From positions 1 through 64,000 of the forward strand of contig NZ_AUDQ01000010.1 in assembly GCF_000425545.1 (NCBI RefSeq): a stretch of 64,000 bases of DNA, given 5' to 3'. The notes under the pieces are model-generated. The model was not told the DNA's origin. It saw nothing but the letters and a program-made list of their open reading frames with translations, and searched no databases. The number at the start of each line of letters is the position of its first letter. Position 1 is the stretch's first letter. The DNA comes from Sporosarcina ureae DSM 2281. Its GTDB lineage: Bacteria; Bacillota; Bacilli; Bacillales_A; Planococcaceae. Position numbers and translations under genes: made by a program. Shown here in pieces: positions 1 through 59,800 of the stretch.

Positions 1-313
1 CACCCTCTCAGGTCGGCTACGCATCGTCGCCTTGGTGAGCCATTACCCCACCAACTAGCTAATGCGCCGCGGGCCCATCCTTCAGTGACAGCGAGATGCC
101 GTCTTTCAACATTCCCTCATGCGAGAGAATGGATTATTCGGTATTAGCCCCGGTTTCCCGGAGTTATCCCCATCTGAAGGGCAGGTTGCCCACGTGTTAC
201 TCACCCGTCCGCCGCTAACTGAAGGAAGCAAGCTTCCAACAGTTCGCTCGACTTGCATGTATTAGGCATGCCGCCAGCGTTCGTCCTGAGCCAGGATCAA
301 ACTCTCCATAATA
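1..313 (-). rRNA. 16S rRNA, 5' part (cut by window edge)
   Basis: The reverse strand carries the start of a bacterial 16S rRNA. The universal 27F site lies at 286-305, and the conserved 5' domain continues to base 1. The mature 5' end is placed near 313, eight bases before the AGAGTTTGAT motif, by analogy with Bacillus. Only about 313 of roughly 1,550 nt are present; the rest of the operon lies beyond base 1. It is transcribed away from pbuG in the same direction, behind its own promoter. Confidence 0.97.
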
Positions 314-750: not shown

Positions 751-2085
751 TTATTTGATATAGATGAAATACAAAATGAAGATTACAAAGAGCCCGTACA
801 TAATTGGATGAATTTCTTTTCTTCTACCGCTTACTAGCATCGTAATAGGATAGAAAACGAAACCGATTGCGATACCTGTTGCGATACTGTACGTCAACGG
901 CATGGCGATAATCGTAAAGAATGCTGGAACTGCGATCTCGAAACGAGTCCACTCTATGTTTCCTAATGTCGACACCATTAATACCCCTACGATAATCAAA
1001 GCAGGAGCCGTAACTGCTGGTGTAATGACTAGTAGTAAAGGAGAGAAGAACATTGCTAGTAAAAACAGCAAGGCGGTTACAATAGAAGCAAAGCCTGTTT
1101 TGGCACCCGCCGCAACACCTGCAGTGGATTCAATATAAGAAGTGGTAGTGGATGTCCCCATTACTGCTCCTGTTACGGTTGCCAAGGAATCCGCAAGTAA
1201 TGCTTTGCCAGCACGCGGCAGACGGTCTTCCTTCATTAGACCTGCTTGTGTAGCTACTGCAACTAGTGTTCCAGCTGTATCGAAGAAGTCTACGAATAGG
1301 AATGTGATGACGATCACGAGAAATTGTGTTGTCATCAATGACCCTGGGTCGTTAAGGATCGCATCAAAAGCTGCACCAAACGTGGGAGCGACTGACGGAA
1401 TTTTATCTACCACCTTGTGCGGCACGTCTATTAAACTGACCGCCATACCTAAAGCCGTGGTCATAATCATTCCGTAGAAAATAGCACCTTTGATCTTCCT
1501 TACCATCATAATAATCGTGATGACTAATCCAAAGATCGTAAGCAATGTAGGACCAGCCGTTAAATCACCTAGACCTACTAACGTATTTTCATCCGCCACA
1601 ATAATCTTGGCATTTTGCAGACCTAGGAATGTAATGAACAAACCTATACCTGCACCTACCGCAAACTTCAGTTGTGCCGGTATTGCATTGATGATCATTT
1701 CACGTAACCCAGTTAATGAAAGAACAATAAAGATTAATCCTGAGAATAACACTCCAGTCAAACCTGTTTGCCATGGTATACCATACGTAAGCACTACGGT
1801 GAAAGCGAAGAATGCGTTTAATCCCATGCCTGGCGCTAAGCCAATCGGATATCTGGCTATTAAACCCATAAAGAGTGTTCCAACAGCAGCTGCGAGTGCA
1901 GTGGCAACAAATACAGCACCTTTATCCATACGCATGGAATCAGGCAGGTCAGGTACAACGTCCAAAGATAACATGATTGGATTTACCGCTAAAATATAGG
2001 CCATGGCTAAAAACGTAGTAATTCCACCGATGATTTCGCGACGATAATTGGTGCCAAGCTTATCAAACTCAAAGTATTTTTTCAT
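751..2085 (-). CDS. pbuG: Guanine/hypoxanthine permease PbuG (NCS2/AzgA-like)
   Basis: A 444-residue polytopic membrane protein that imports guanine and hypoxanthine for purine salvage. The N-terminus resembles Bacillus PbuG (MKKYFEFDKLGTNYRREI), followed by the ITTFLAMAYILAVNP and GLAPGMGLNAFFAF segments typical of the AzgA-like branch of nucleobase transporters. I chose the ATG at 2083-2085 because AAGGAAGG lies about 6 nt upstream. The in-frame ATG at 2104-2106 sits on the edge of the leader terminator and has no ribosome site. A purine riboswitch and terminator precede the gene, so expression should fall when guanine is plentiful. The neighbour guaA upstream matches the B. subtilis order. 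Confidence 0.95.
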   Translation of the reverse strand: MKKYFEFDKLGTNYRREIIGGITTFLAMAYILAVNPIMLSLDVVPDLPDSMRMDKGAVFVATALAAAVGTLFMGLIARYPIGLAPGMGLNAFFAFTVVLTYGIPWQTGLTGVLFSGLIFIVLSLTGLREMIINAIPAQLKFAVGAGIGLFITFLGLQNAKIIVADENTLVGLGDLTAGPTLLTIFGLVITIIMMVRKIKGAIFYGMIMTTALGMAVSLIDVPHKVVDKIPSVAPTFGAAFDAILNDPGSLMTTQFLVIVITFLFVDFFDTAGTLVAVATQAGLMKEDRLPRAGKALLADSLATVTGAVMGTSTTTSYIESTAGVAAGAKTGFASIVTALLFLLAMFFSPLLLVITPAVTAPALIIVGVLMVSTLGNIEWTRFEIAVPAFFTIIAMPLTYSIATGIAIGFVFYPITMLVSGRRKEIHPIMYGLFVIFILYFIYIK

Positions 2086-2111
2086 TGTGACCTTCCTTAC
2101 TCTCATTATGT

Positions 2112-2148: not shown

Positions 2149-2179
2149 TTTAATCCAATAGAAAATACATTTCTATTTT

Positions 2180-2250
2180 GAATCGTAGTCGAAACATTTA
2201 CGGTGTTTCGGTAGAGACTTCCAGGCCTTATTCCCAGCGTTATACGATCA
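2180..2250 (-). promoter_or_regulatory. Purine riboswitch, guanine class
   Basis: The reverse strand contains the purine aptamer core: CGTATAA at the P1/J1-2 junction, a GGCCTGGAAGTCTCTACC segment, then ACACCGTAAATGT and CGACTACG closing P1. The 3' junction reads GACTA rather than GATTA, meaning a C at the ligand-pairing position, which in this family specifies guanine/hypoxanthine. P1 pairs GATCGTA with TACGATT. It controls pbuG through the terminator at 2112-2148. Confidence 0.95.
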
Positions 2251-2266
2251 TATTCTGTTGTTTAAC

Positions 2267-3820
2267 TTATTCCCATTCAATAGTGCCTGGTGGTTTCGCT
2301 GTAATATCATATACAACACGATTGACTTGATCCACTTCAGTTGTAATTCGAGTACTAATTTTTTCTAGTACATCGAAAGGTATACGAGCCCAGTCTGCCG
2401 TCATACCATCTACTGAATGAACCGCTCTTATACCTATCGCATAGTCGTAAGAACGTTGTTCGTTACGAACACCTACACTACGGATATTCGGTAATACTGC
2501 GAAATATTGCCAGATTGAACGATCGAGTCCAGCTTTTGCGATTTCATCACGTAAAATAAAGTCTGCATCGCGAACGATTTCAAGCTTATCTTCCGTAATT
2601 TCCCCAAGCACACGAACTCCAAGTCCCGGACCTGGGAATGGTTGACGGTTAACAATTTCTTCAGGCAATCCAAGTTCCGCACCTACCGCACGTACTTCAT
2701 CTTTAAATAATGCACGTAATGGTTCGATTAACTCGAAGTCCATATCTTCAGGCAAACCGCCCACATTATGGTGAGATTTAATAGTTGCAGAAGTTGCTGT
2801 TCCACTTTCAATGATATCTGCATAAATCGTACCTTGTGCTAAATATTTGATGCCGTCTAGTTTAGCAGATTCTTCATCAAATACGTAAATAAATTCATTG
2901 CCGATAATCTTACGTTTTTGTTCAGGATCTGTAACACCTTCGAGCTTATTTAAGAAGCGTTCGCGTGCATCTACTTTAATGAAGTGCATACTGAACTGTT
3001 CACTGAAAGTCTTAACTACACTTTCAACTTCGCCTTTACGAAGCAATCCGTGGTCAACAAAAATACATGTCAACTGATCTCCTATTGCACGGTCAATCAA
3101 AGCAGCTACGACTGATGAGTCAACCCCGCCACTTAGCGCGCAAAGTACTTTACGATCGCCAACCGTTGAGCGGATCTTCTCTACTTCTATCTCAATGAAA
3201 CGATCCATTGTCCAATCGCCTGAAGCTTTACAGATTTCAAAAACAAAGTTACGCAAGAAGTCTTTCCCGTTTTCCGAACGATAATCTTCTGGATGGAATT
3301 GAATCGCATAGATTTGTTGTTCATCGTTTGAAATAGCTGCAATATTACCAGCAGAATCTTTTGCAGATGCAGTAAACCCTTCAGGTAATTCGACAATGTC
3401 AGCGCTGTGACTAACCCAGACGTTTTGATTGTCAGTCTGACCAGCAAATAATGTAGACGTCGTATCCACTGTCAACGTTTCTTCTTTGCTTTCACCGCCT
3501 GCATTCTTTTCTACCTTACCGCCTAAATGATCAACGATTACTTGAGCTCCGTAACTGATGCCCAATACAGGAATACCTAATTCAAATATTGCTGGATTGA
3601 TATCATGCGCTTTCGCGTCTCCAACAGATGCTGCACCGCCGGAAAGTACAATACCGACTGGATTCATTTTTTTAATTTCCTCAATTGTCGTTGTATGTGC
3701 GTGTAACTCACTATACACACCAAATTCGCGGATTGTACGCGTGAAGAGCTGATTATACTTACTGCCGTAATCGAGAACTACAACTTTTTCTTGTCCGGCT
3801 AACACAGGAGCATTTGACAA
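2267..3820 (-). CDS. guaA: GMP synthase with altered glutaminase active site
   Basis: A 517-residue protein of the GuaA family, which converts XMP to GMP using ATP and ammonia. The C-terminal two-thirds looks intact: ATP-PPase P-loop SGGVDSS (230-236), [11 protein letters not shown] and a complete C-terminal dimerisation domain ending TIEWE. The N-terminal class I glutamine amidotransferase domain is unusual. Where the family has GICYG, this protein has GISYG, with Ser89 in place of the nucleophilic Cys. SGGP is SGGA and MSHGD is VSHSA. FHPE (His176, Glu178) is kept. The start is TTG at 3818-3820, with AGGTGG 5 nt upstream. I infer ammonia-dependent activity. The order yebA-guaA-pbuG matches B. 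subtilis. Confidence 0.93.
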
Positions 3821-8439: not shown

Positions 8440-9264
8440 TCATTTCCAAAATTCATCAAATACCGTGATAGGCAAATGGCGTTTATGCGCTGATTTCAAA
8501 TAATGCCCTTCTATTTGCTTTCGCGCCTCATCCGATACTTCTTTTCCTTCCAGATAGTCATCAATTTCATCATACGTCACACCTAATGCTACCTCATCCG
8601 GAATGGCAGGTTTATTGTCTTCCAAATCAGCCGTAGGGATTTTATTGTATAAATGTGGTGGGCAATCTAGCGCTTCTAATAGTTGTTTTCCTTGGCGTTT
8701 ATTCAATCGGTAGATCGGCATAAGATCCGCTGCGCCATCACCAAACTTTGTATAAAATCCAGTAATTGCTTCAGCTGCGTGATCTGAACCTAGAACGACA
8801 GAGTGATGGATGGCTGCTACGGAATATTGTGCTTTCATACGTTCGCGCGCTTTTTCATTTCCTTTATCAAAATCAGAAATGTGGAGACCCGCTTTGTTCA
8901 TAGCTCGCTCACTGGCATCCACCGCTTCTTTAATATCGACTGAATAAACGATTGACGGCTTAATAAAACGCAATGCATCTTGGCAATCGTCTTCGTCAAA
9001 CTGCACACCGTATGGTAAACGAAGAGCATAGAAGCGGTACTTTTCTTTCCCTTCTTCTTCATTCAGCTCGTCAATCGCCATCTGCGCCAACTTGCCGACT
9101 AATGTAGAGTCTTGACCACCGGAAATACCTAATGTGAACCCTTGTAAAAAGGTATTTTTTTTCAAATATGCTTTCATAAAGTCAATGGAAGTCCGGATCT
9201 CTTGCTGCGGGTCGATTTCCGGCTTCGTACATAATGCTTGGATAATTTCTTGCTGCAATGTCAA
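8440..9264 (-). CDS. nadE: NH3-dependent NAD+ synthetase
   Basis: A 274-residue enzyme that converts deamido-NAD to NAD+ with ATP and ammonia, the last step of NAD synthesis. [11 protein letters not shown] is the PP-loop of the N-type ATP pyrophosphatase fold, and [28 protein letters not shown] is the conserved deamido-NAD and ATP site. There is no glutaminase domain, so it is the ammonia-using form. I chose TTG at 9262-9264 over the upstream ATG at 9312: the protein then begins MTLQQEII like Bacillus NadE, and the gap to the pncB stop becomes 16 nt instead of a 32-nt overlap. It is co-transcribed with pncB. Confidence 0.95.
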
Positions 9265-9280
9265 CGCTCCCACTTCCTTT

Positions 9281-10750
9281 TCAATGTTTGGTATAGTTCT
9301 CGACCATTTCATGCACTTCTTCTATATTACGTCTCTTATTGTCCCAACACTTCTGACTAAGATCAACAGGATATTCTTCAGGATTTAACGAACGCTGATA
9401 TTCCTCCCATAGTAGAGAAAGATTTCGTTGTGCAAATTCACGGATTTCATACACTGGAGGATTTTTATAAATAACGGTTCCATTCTGAATCACATGCTCG
9501 TGCAAGTTTACTGCTTCAAAATTCGTCACAAACTTTGAGATAAATGTATGCACAGGGTGGAACATTTTGAGGCGTTCTTCCTTTGTCGGATCCTCATCAT
9601 GCATCGTAATATAATCGCCTTCCGCTTTACCATTTTCGAGGTCAATAATTCGATAGAGCTTTTTACGGCCAGGTGTCGTTACTTTCTCTACGTTAGCTGA
9701 AATTTTAATCGTATCTTGCATTTCCCCATCATCGCTTTCAATGGAGACAATTTTATAGACAGCTCCAAGCGCCGGTTGATCATATGCCGTAATCAGCTTT
9801 GTTCCAATACCCCAAATGTCGACTTGAGCTCCTTGAGCTTTCAAGTTCAAAATCGTGTACTCATCCAAATCATTGGATACAACGATTTTCGCATCCGGGA
9901 AACCTGCTTCGTCTAGCATTCGGCGAGTTTCTTTTGACAAGAACGCAATATCTCCACTGTCCAAGCGTACACCGATGAAATTAATGCTGTCTCCAAGCTC
10001 TTTTGCTACTTTGATAGCTGTCGGAACGCCAATCTTTAATGTATTATACGTATCCACTAAGAAGACGCAGTCTTTGTGACGTTGTGCGTAAACTTTGAAT
10101 GCTGTGTACTCATCTTTATAGGCTTGAACAAACGAATGTGCATGCGTTCCAGAAACAGTTAGTCCGAAACGTTTTCCTGCACGTACGTTACTCGTGGACT
10201 CCACGCCACCAATGACCGCTGCACGCGCGCCCCAAACTGCGGCATCCATTTCGTGCGCGCGTCGGCTCCCGAATTCCATCACAATGTCATCTTTTACTAC
10301 TTGCTTGATACGGCTAGCTTTTGTGCTGATCAATGTCTGGTAGTTAACAATATTTAGCAATGCTGTTTCGATCAACTGCGCTTCAATCAGGTTCGCTTCA
10401 ATACGAATGATCGGTTCATTCGCGAAAACGAGTTCTCCTTCTTTCATGGAGTAAACGTCTCCAGTGAAACGGACGCCTTTCAAATAATCGAGGAAGTCAT
10501 TCGCAAACCCAAGCTCTTCTCGTAAATAATCTAGATCGCTTTCTGTGAATGAAAACTCCTCAAGATACTTCAGTACATGTTCAAGGCCAGCAAATATCGC
10601 ATAACCGTTACCGAATGGAATTTTTCTGAAATACACTTCAAATACGGCTTTCCGTTCATGAATGCCGTCCGCCCAATACGATTCGGCCATATTGATTTGA
10701 TATAGGTCTGTGTGTAACGCTAAGCTGTCGTCTTTGTATGATGAAGTCAT
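9281..10750 (-). CDS. pncB: Nicotinate phosphoribosyltransferase
   Basis: A 489-residue enzyme that makes nicotinate mononucleotide from nicotinate and PRPP, the entry step of NAD salvage. Family motifs include [15 protein letters not shown] at the N-terminus, [44 protein letters not shown] and [12 protein letters not shown]. The ATG at 10748-10750 is preceded by AAGGAG with good spacing. A longer frame to 10786 would begin inside the likely -10 box, so it is rejected. The gene is followed by nadE, a two-gene NAD salvage operon. Confidence 0.96.
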
Positions 10751-16094: not shown

Positions 16095-16251
16095 AATAAA
16101 TATCTCCTTTCTGTCATGAATAGCTCTATAAGTATAGCAAATCTTTTGCTATAACAAAAAATCAGCCGATGACGATAAAAGGAAGCTTGCTTCTAGTATA
16201 TCCGCATGATAGAATAAATCCGTCAACAGTTTTTCCTATATTGTGAATATT

Positions 16252-16350
16252 CTTATCGAGAGAGACGGAGGGATAGGCCCAGCGATGTCTCAGCAACCAG
16301 CCTCAGGCACGGTGCTAATTCCAAGGGTGACACCACCTTGAAGATGAGAA
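16252..16350 (+). promoter_or_regulatory. SAM-I (S-box) riboswitch
   Basis: Canonical S-box elements appear in order: CTTATCGAGAGAG, GGAGGGATAGGCCC, GATGTCTCAGCAACC, CACGGTGCTAATTCCAA and AAGATGAGAA closing P1 with CTTATC. It precedes metI and should switch transcription off when S-adenosylmethionine is abundant. Confidence 0.97.
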
Positions 16351-18957: not shown

Positions 18958-19473
18958 TTATTTTTCTAAAATTTTTAGTGATTCGCGATTAAAAGCTGGA
19001 ATATCGTCAGGTGTACGGCTTGTTACAAGTTGGTTCTGACAGACTACTACTTCTTTGTCTGCGTATTTTGCACCTGCATATTCCATATCTACACGAATGG
19101 ACGTATATCCTGTTGCATCTCGCCCTTCAAGCTCTTTCGCTGTAATGAGCAATTGTGGACCATGACAAATTGCGAATACAGGTTTTTTTGCATCCATAAA
19201 TTCTTTGACAAATTTCACAAAACGATCATCTGCACGTAAAATGTCCGGTGAAAATCCGCCTGGAATAAATAACGCGTCATAATCTGACGATTTAGCGTCA
19301 GCAATTGCTTTATCAATTCCCACTTTTGTATTTTCTTTCATACCCGTTACTTCTGTTCCTGCTTCCGCACCAATCACTTCTACTTCGTGTCCAGCTTCCT
19401 TATACGCGGCAGCCGGTTTCATATATTCTGAGTCCTCAAACATATCACCAAGTACTGTTGCAATTTTAGCCAT
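18958..19473 (-). CDS. yfkM: DJ-1/PfpI-family general stress protein (YfkM-like)
   Basis: A 171-residue DJ-1/PfpI superfamily protein. The nucleophile elbow is FAICHGPQLL, with a conserved acidic residue early in the chain (MFEDSEYMKPA). Family members act as deglycases, proteases or glyoxalases; B. subtilis YfkM is a general stress protein. ATG at 19471-19473 is preferred over GTG 12 nt upstream, because the AGGAG site would abut the GTG. A sigma-B-like promoter is seen upstream at 19511-19536, which fits a stress role. Confidence 0.9.
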   Translation of the reverse strand: MAKIATVLGDMFEDSEYMKPAAAYKEAGHEVEVIGAEAGTEVTGMKENTKVGIDKAIADAKSSDYDALFIPGGFSPDILRADDRFVKFVKEFMDAKKPVFAICHGPQLLITAKELEGRDATGYTSIRVDMEYAGAKYADKEVVVCQNQLVTSRTPDDIPAFNRESLKILEK

Positions 19474-19510
19474 AATGCTTACCACTCCTTATGTGATGTT
19501 CTGTAAATAC

Positions 19511-20903: not shown

Positions 20904-21215
20904 ACATGATCACTCCTGTCTTTTCATTTCTATACGTTCTAACATACGTTTTAGTTTCAATAAATAGAAGAACTTTCCATTGCATTTTAGCTTTTACAGG
21001 TGTAATATAAATCTACAAGCTGTATTGTTCGTATGACATTAAGTTTTAACCTTTAAGCTGTAAAAGGGAGTTTATTACGAAACGGAAATGGCATGCTGGA
21101 TTCCTTATAGCAATCCAGACATACAGGAACGTTTTCCGCAAACACCCACTTTGAGGAGTGGTGGTTTAAAACTTTCTATGACTAAGTACGGCAAACACGG
21201 CTTACATAAACAGAG
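20904..21215. other. Non-coding interval
   Basis: No supported gene. It is AT-rich, with a short repeat CCACT/AGTGG near 21149-21164. A 57-codon frame from 21092 lacks a ribosome site and runs through the terminator at 21216, so it is not called. The strong terminator with no gene in front leaves room for a small RNA on the + strand. Confidence 0.4.
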
Positions 21216-59595: not shown

Positions 59596-59611
59596 GAAAG
59601 AGCAACTGAAT

Positions 59612-59800
59612 ATCGTGTTAGAGATAGGTGCGTTTATTTTTCTTAAACGCTTAAAAGGGAAATTGGTGAAAAACCGATGCTGTCCCGCAACTGTGAGTTG
59701 GAGTATAATTCGTTACCACTGTTTCACCGTAAGGGAAATGGGAAGGTGAATTATACGTTGAAGACGAGCCAGGAGACCTGCCTAGATCAGTACACACCAA
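59612..59800 (+). promoter_or_regulatory. Cobalamin riboswitch
   Basis: The conserved B12 core is present in order: TAGGTGCGTTTA, TTAAAAGGGAAATTGGTG, ATGCTGTCCCGCAACTGTGA and GAGCCAGGAGACCTGCC. No recognisable B12 or cobalt gene lies downstream: only a 48-codon frame, a terminator and a 73-residue protein gene before a convergent ABC operon. It normally turns expression off when adenosylcobalamin is bound. Confidence 0.95.

Follow-up and report, generated by a model that had tools for sequence, protein, structure and literature searches.

According to standard teaching, nucleotide synthesis usually draws its nitrogen from glutamine by way of ammonia channels. Bacterial NadE enzymes without a glutaminase domain build their amide from free ammonia, and the engineered variants C269S and C269G of Escherichia coli CarA lose glutamine-dependent but not NH3-dependent activity. 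In GMP synthase (GuaA), the ATP-PPase module is described as working without the glutaminase (GATase) domain and as accepting external ammonia in vitro, and enzymes composed of two subunits exist (PMC10526850). The C89A/C113A variant of Plasmodium falciparum GMPS is reported to have no activity with glutamine and to retain activity with NH4Cl (PMC9312489). In human CPS1, as described, Ser294 replaces the cysteine and glutamine is unusable; the ancestral class-I glutaminase-like domain of the vertebrate enzyme is inactive but retained, and ammonia comes from the environment (PMC4655335).

The genus Sporosarcina has been connected with ammonia through the physiology of Sporosarcina pasteurii. 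For this species glutamine synthetase (GS) and GOGAT activity are described as absent and ammonia as mandatory, with urea able to replace it; strain DSM33 grew without glutamine, which others are described as requiring (PMC7775470). Washed cells are reported not to grow in TSB without urea, a need that the authors put down to alkaline pH and ATP generation, not to amidotransferases (PMC6979283).

The GMP Synthase of Sporosarcina ureae Lacks Its Glutaminase Nucleophile

We analyzed a window of 64,000 nucleotides from Sporosarcina ureae DSM 2281 (assembly GCF_000425545.1, contig NZ_AUDQ01000010.1). It contains the following features.

2267..3820, minus strand: guaA, two-domain GMP synthase, 517 amino acids plus stop, TTG start (NCBIfam NF000848, 750 bits)
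3236..3781, minus strand: class-I GATase domain of GuaA, nucleophile lost, predicted still to be folded (PF00117; pLDDT ~90 in most blocks)
3632..3643, minus strand: SGGA, residues 60-63 (SGGP in intact relatives)
3554..3556, minus strand: codon 89, AGT for Ser where the catalytic Cys is expected (sequence and alignment to PDB 7sbc)
3401..3415, minus strand: VSHSA, residues 136-140 (MSH[GST]D in intact relatives)
3287..3295, minus strand: HPE, residual catalytic His176 and Glu178
2270..3208, minus strand: ATP-PPase and dimerisation part of GuaA (residues 205-517), under strong conservation (SGGVDSS in 68/68 genomes; dN/dS ~0.02)
2166..2267, minus strand: purine riboswitch in the interval separating guaA from the permease gene (Rfam RF00167, 79.4 bits)
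751..2106, minus strand: xanthine/uracil-permease-family gene downstream of guaA (PF00860)
8440..9312, minus strand: nadE, ammonia-type synthetase with a NAD_synthase domain only and no glutaminase domain (PF02540 only)
16250-16350, plus strand: SAM riboswitch (Rfam match)
21014-21207, plus strand: 6S RNA (Rfam match)
59609-59799, plus strand: cobalamin riboswitch (Rfam match)
1-312, minus strand: beginning of a 16S rRNA gene, truncated at the window boundary (Rfam match)

At 3554-3556 the plus strand reads ACT and the coding strand AGT, which encodes Ser89 within the motif GISYG, part of a ten-residue stretch. Alignment to a solved GMP synthase (PDB 7sbc) places this serine at the cysteine of GICYG. 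The first-pass annotation, made from the DNA letters, had claimed exactly this replacement, and it was right. The Cys-His-Glu triad is thus incomplete, but His176 and Glu178 are present (QFHPED), and the motif drift to SGGA and VSHSA is as first described. The N-terminal class-I GATase domain is recognizable by profile (PF00117, 130.7 bits) and by fold, and both the PP-loop ATP-PPase and the GMP_synt_C dimerisation domain are present. The ATP-PPase part, which had been called intact, indeed contains SGGVDSS and is under strong purifying selection. A lost nucleophile next to a conserved synthetase domain would be expected of a CPS1-like, ammonia-specific enzyme, and GuaA displays both. The first-pass annotation had asked whether a second guaA exists; a domain search of the S. 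ureae assembly (3,318,653 bases in 35 contigs) returned no second GMP_synt_C protein and no second or split guaA.

An AlphaFold model of GuaA, built from 38 aligned sequences, retains the GATase part, with pLDDT values of ~90 in most ten-residue blocks between residues 11 and 200 and two blocks at 67 and 77. The model matches GMP synthases over their full length (TM by query length is 0.82-0.86, comparing E. coli 1gpm and Acinetobacter baumannii 7sbc), and suggests that the GATase domain probably still folds. S. ureae GuaA shares the full-length fold, the domain order and the ATP-PPase motifs with these two enzymes but differs from them by the absent catalytic cysteine and by relaxed constraint on the GATase domain. 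The P. falciparum C89A and C89A/C113A mutants likewise have the cysteine removed; those mutants are engineered, whereas the Sporosarcina enzyme is natural. NadE of S. ureae also does without a glutaminase domain, but belongs to another family and carries no decayed class-I GATase.

The Cysteine Is Absent from GuaA in Most Sporosarcina Genomes

The closest named guaA loci are from Sporosarcina (GuaA is 92% identical in an S. ureae MAG and 95% in Sporosarcina sp. P2), and all 68 Sporosarcina genomes contain a guaA match. The catalytic cysteine is absent from 56 of these and present in 12; residue 89 is Ser in 25, Gly in 13, Asn in 9, Ala in 3, Glu in 3, Asp in 2 and a gap in 1. The loss is hence shared among relatives, as the first-pass annotation had proposed to check. 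It had also argued against a sequencing error, which we can rule out by the same serine in the five closest relatives (GuaA 95-97% identical), by the absence of the cysteine across the genus and by parallel losses in other enzymes (see below). Ser89 is encoded by AGY in 14 genomes and by TCN in 11, and therefore arose more than once or via another residue.

Other parts of the glutaminase are affected as well. Most of residues 95-171, the glutaminase core, is missing from 16 of the 68 proteins, all of which are also Cys-less. Cys, His176 and Glu178 occur together in 10/68, and Cys89, His138, His176 and Glu178 together in none (0/68). The ATP-PPase motif SGGVDSS is found in 68/68 genomes and the string KRKIIG in 55/68. 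As controls, all four catalytic residues are intact in 44/44 rows from other Bacilli, 30 of which are best-scoring family loci and hence no random sample, and in 75/75 named non-Sporosarcina loci from several phyla, read by tblastn (eight loci, L086-L093, are shared by the two sets).

In full-length GuaA proteins that have lost the cysteine, dN/dS is 0.114 for the GATase and 0.021 for the ATP-PPase domain (79 pairs). The corresponding values are 0.059 and 0.039 for 30 family loci from other genera (166 pairs), and 0.107 and 0.033 for Sporosarcina proteins that keep the cysteine (4 pairs only). By these estimates the Cys-less GATase domain is evolving faster, yet it is constrained, and a dN/dS far below 1 argues that it still does something. 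Protein distances give a similar picture: the ratio of GATase to the other domain in GuaA is 3.64 in the genus, 2.91 in the Cys keepers and 1.95 in others. In Sporosarcina it amounts to 3.11 for PyrG and 1.15 for CarA, versus 1.35 and 0.61 in outgroups (6 outgroup pairs only in each case).

We mapped the changes on a tree (69 rows) built from the ATP-PPase domain of GuaA and the synthetase domain of PyrG, in which support is under 80 for 19 of 64 inner branches. The tree requires at least 3 changes for the GuaA cysteine, 17 for residue 89 itself and 11 for the presence of GS. In this tree a long branch (0.45) leads to one clade of ten genomes (G002, G006, G009, G014, G030, G226, G236, G245, G250 and G251), in which most of the GuaA glutaminase core is lost. 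The PyrG of this clade resembles S. ureae PyrG about as closely as that of other relatives does, and the GuaA part of these genomes may be adapting.

Nucleophiles Are Also Lost from CarA, PyrG and PurQ

The nucleophile motif reads GIGLGHQ in S. ureae CarA and GISLGLQ in PyrG, and in PurQ both the cysteine and the histidine are gone (GVGNGFH and MPLPER). A CarA match is present in 46 of 68 Sporosarcina genomes, with Gly at the nucleophile position in 46/46. In the other 22 the search detected no CarA at E ≤ 1e-25; they would either use CarB alone with ammonia or have lost carbamoyl phosphate synthesis. Gly at this position was engineered in E. coli CarA C269G, as was Ser in C269S, but is the natural state in Sporosarcina; PDB entry 1c30, which we take to be the C269S variant, has Ser at the aligned position. 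PyrG is found in 68/68 genomes and never has the cysteine (Gly in 34, Ser in 32 and Ala in 3 of 69 rows; the 75% complete genome G025 contributes two pieces, both non-Cys). In outgroups the cysteine is present in 4/4 PyrG and 4/4 CarA proteins.

For PurQ and PurF we read 20 of the 68 Sporosarcina genomes; the searches for GlmS and for PF00117 matches likewise covered 20. PurQ carries Gly for Cys and Leu for His in 19/20 genomes and is intact in the remaining one (G024) and in 6/6 outgroups. In S. ureae, purQ and purF lie in a row of open pur genes (locus L294), whose order we take to be purE-K-S-Q-L-F-M-N (PurQ and PurF are assigned by annotation models). The genes purB and purC, which in Bacillus subtilis lie between purK and purS, are absent from this run.

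The losses extend to a neighbouring genus, g40, for which one or two genomes were read per enzyme. PurQ has Gly and Leu in 2/2 g40 genomes (G208, G209), and G208 has Gly in CarA, Gly in PyrG and Ser in GuaA. In a tree of PurL, 19 Sporosarcina proteins form one clade with those of G208 and G209 (SH-aLRT 100), which is compatible with a position of g40 beside or inside Sporosarcina. PurL of G024 groups with an outgroup (SH-aLRT 99), and the intact PurQ of this genome was therefore probably acquired along with a pur operon of foreign origin. At this locus (L389) the intact PurQ adjoins a PurL grouping with that of another genus, and the G024 genome is without urease; a return to glutamine through gene transfer is possible.

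PabA/TrpG-like proteins were told apart by size and score. Among the matches listed, a strong PF00117 match of TrpG/PabA size occurs in 1/20 Sporosarcina genomes (G236), versus one or two in each of 9/9 family members outside Sporosarcina and g40. The G236 protein (L207:1483-2085), the only one of these that was itself read, is an intact GATase with GVCLGHQ and HPES.

Class-II Amidotransferases, Glutamine Synthetase and Urease

The class-II enzymes behave differently. The PurF cysteine is present in 20/20 Sporosarcina genomes read. Of the 20 genomes searched for GlmS, 11 have no full-length enzyme, including S. ureae, where the sole match is PurF; in the nine that do have it, its cysteine is present. 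Retention of the cysteine in PurF and GlmS indicates that glutamine is not wholly abandoned. NagB running in reverse with ammonia is a candidate source of glucosamine-6-phosphate in the GlmS-less genomes.

GS (PF00120) is missing from 27/68 Sporosarcina genomes but from only 2/193 other family members (Fisher p = 5e-16, uncorrected for descent); glnA is present in S. ureae. For 7 of the 27, and for both genomes outside the genus, identity was derived by subtracting the genomes with a match. One genome (G018) has only weak GS pieces (best E 3.3e-7) and is counted among the 41/68 with a GS match, and as lacking intact GS (28/68) in the comparisons with urease and with the GuaA cysteine. Urease alpha (E ≤ 1e-20) is found in 53/68 Sporosarcina genomes, S. 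ureae included, versus 36/193 other family members (p = 3e-18, uncorrected for descent). The PyrG proteins of the 15 genomes without urease, and their CarA proteins where present, are equally Cys-less, which rules out urease as a strict cause of the cysteine losses. The earlier proposal that ammonia dependence would suit an ureolytic lifestyle thus agrees with the urease of S. ureae itself, but ureolysis is not strictly required. Urease is found in 26 of 28 genomes without intact GS and in 27 of 40 with GS (p = 0.017, uncorrected), and the association is non-significant in 7 independent tree pairs; the link is suggestive only. Of the 12 genomes in which the GuaA cysteine is present, 10 lack intact GS, the opposite of a simple link.

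These data bear on the order of events. GS could have been lost first, and the GATases could then have decayed for want of glutamine. The number of genomes missing GS would fit this sequence, as would the report of S. pasteurii lacking GS activity (PMC7775470). The losses in CarA, PyrG and PurQ, however, span nearly the whole genus and reach the neighbouring one, whereas GS absence is scattered and looks recent: its presence changes 11 times on the tree, GS is present in S. ureae (G000), G001 and G029 but absent from their close relatives G023 and G240, and G018 has weak pieces. We thus judge GS loss an unlikely first cause.

Other Sources of Ammonia and Other Fates of GuaA

A PF00117 search of the S. 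ureae genome gave five matches, all of which were read: CarA and PyrG (both Cys-less), GuaA, a DJ-1/PfpI protein (window positions 18958-19485) and a protein that we take to be gamma-glutamyl-hydrolase-like. The last two still have their cysteine, in AICHGPQ and GICRGYQ, respectively; a general loss of cysteine from GATase-like folds is ruled out. The search found no separate active GATase subunit of the archaeal two-subunit type. Supply of ammonia to GuaA in trans by such a subunit, for which two-subunit GMP synthases offer a precedent (PMC10526850), is very unlikely given this inventory and the fused GATase domain that S. ureae GuaA still contains.

We give still less credence to Ser89 acting as a working nucleophile in slow glutamine hydrolysis. 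In GuaA the cysteine is most often replaced by Ser (25/68), which is frequent in PyrG too, and S. ureae GuaA retains His176 and Glu178, but other species have Gly, Ala, Asn, Asp or Glu at this position, the domain core is mostly lost in 16/68 genomes, CarA and PurQ have Gly, and human CPS1 with Ser is described as unable to use glutamine (PMC4655335). Equally improbable is that de novo GMP synthesis is obsolete, with purines salvaged and guaA decaying as a whole: next to guaA lie a permease gene (xanthine/uracil family) and a purine riboswitch, but the ATP-PPase domain of GuaA has a dN/dS of ~0.02 and the motif in 68/68 genomes, and S. ureae retains its row of open pur genes, purQ and purF among them.

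DISCUSSION

Taken together, our sequence comparisons define nucleophile losses in several amidotransferases, retention of the GuaA synthetase part under purifying selection, a genus-wide spread of these losses and a scattered absence of GS. Judged from these sequences and by analogy with characterized enzymes, it is highly probable that the class-I amidotransferases of this lineage have switched from glutamine to free ammonia and that GuaA of S. ureae is functional as a GMP synthase, with ammonia as its only nitrogen source. The first-pass annotation had suggested that GuaA may depend on free ammonia; the sequences support this, and the suggestion was too modest, as the nucleophiles of PyrG, CarA and PurQ are lost too. 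We infer that GuaA, PyrG, CarAB and PurLQ of S. ureae all take NH3 from the cytoplasm.

In such a GMP synthase the ATP-PPase domain would make adenyl-XMP, which would be attacked directly by cytoplasmic free NH3. The GATase domain would not hydrolyze glutamine and may persist as a structural or interdomain part. Losses in CarA, PurQ and PyrG affect nearly every genome read as well as g40, and are by our inference the oldest, followed by those in GuaA and finally by the loss of GS. Class-I glutaminase function would have been given up early, in Sporosarcina and the neighbouring genus, in CarA, PurQ and probably PyrG, with the synthetase partner being kept and separate PabA/TrpG-like subunits mostly dropped. 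GuaA would have followed later and several times, in some lineages with a deletion that took out the greater part of the domain core. High internal NH3/NH4+, from urea hydrolysis and an alkaline niche, may have made the glutamine detour, which costs one ATP per nitrogen, unnecessary. With glutamine no longer the main nitrogen donor, GS would have become dispensable and been repeatedly lost.

Each single enzyme is of a known kind, namely a natural ammonia-specific amidotransferase such as CPS1. CPS1 is one enzyme in one pathway, whereas in Sporosarcina several unlinked enzymes are concerned across a bacterial genus, and a search of the open-access literature returned no report of such a joint, lineage-wide occurrence in bacteria. 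Several unlinked class-I amidotransferases in one genus, which have given up glutamine chemistry but retain their synthetase halves, offer a natural test of the purpose of the ammonia channel and of the glutaminase domain. Curated annotation models call S. ureae GuaA, CarA and PyrG 'glutamine-hydrolyzing', with scores above their cut-offs; metabolic models built from such annotation probably contain the wrong reaction for these three enzymes.

We further consider it likely, if with less assurance than the switch itself, that an early change from glutamine to free ammonia in nearly all class-I amidotransfer (to carbamoyl phosphate, FGAM, CTP and GMP, and in the PabA/TrpG steps of such of those pathways as remain) made GS and GlmS dispensable and is a molecular reason why S. 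pasteurii and its relatives require ammonia. Such a switch fits the lack of GS and GOGAT activity reported for S. pasteurii (PMC7775470). It may help to explain why Sporosarcina (Bacillus) pasteurii, a main biocement organism, has long been reported to require ammonia.
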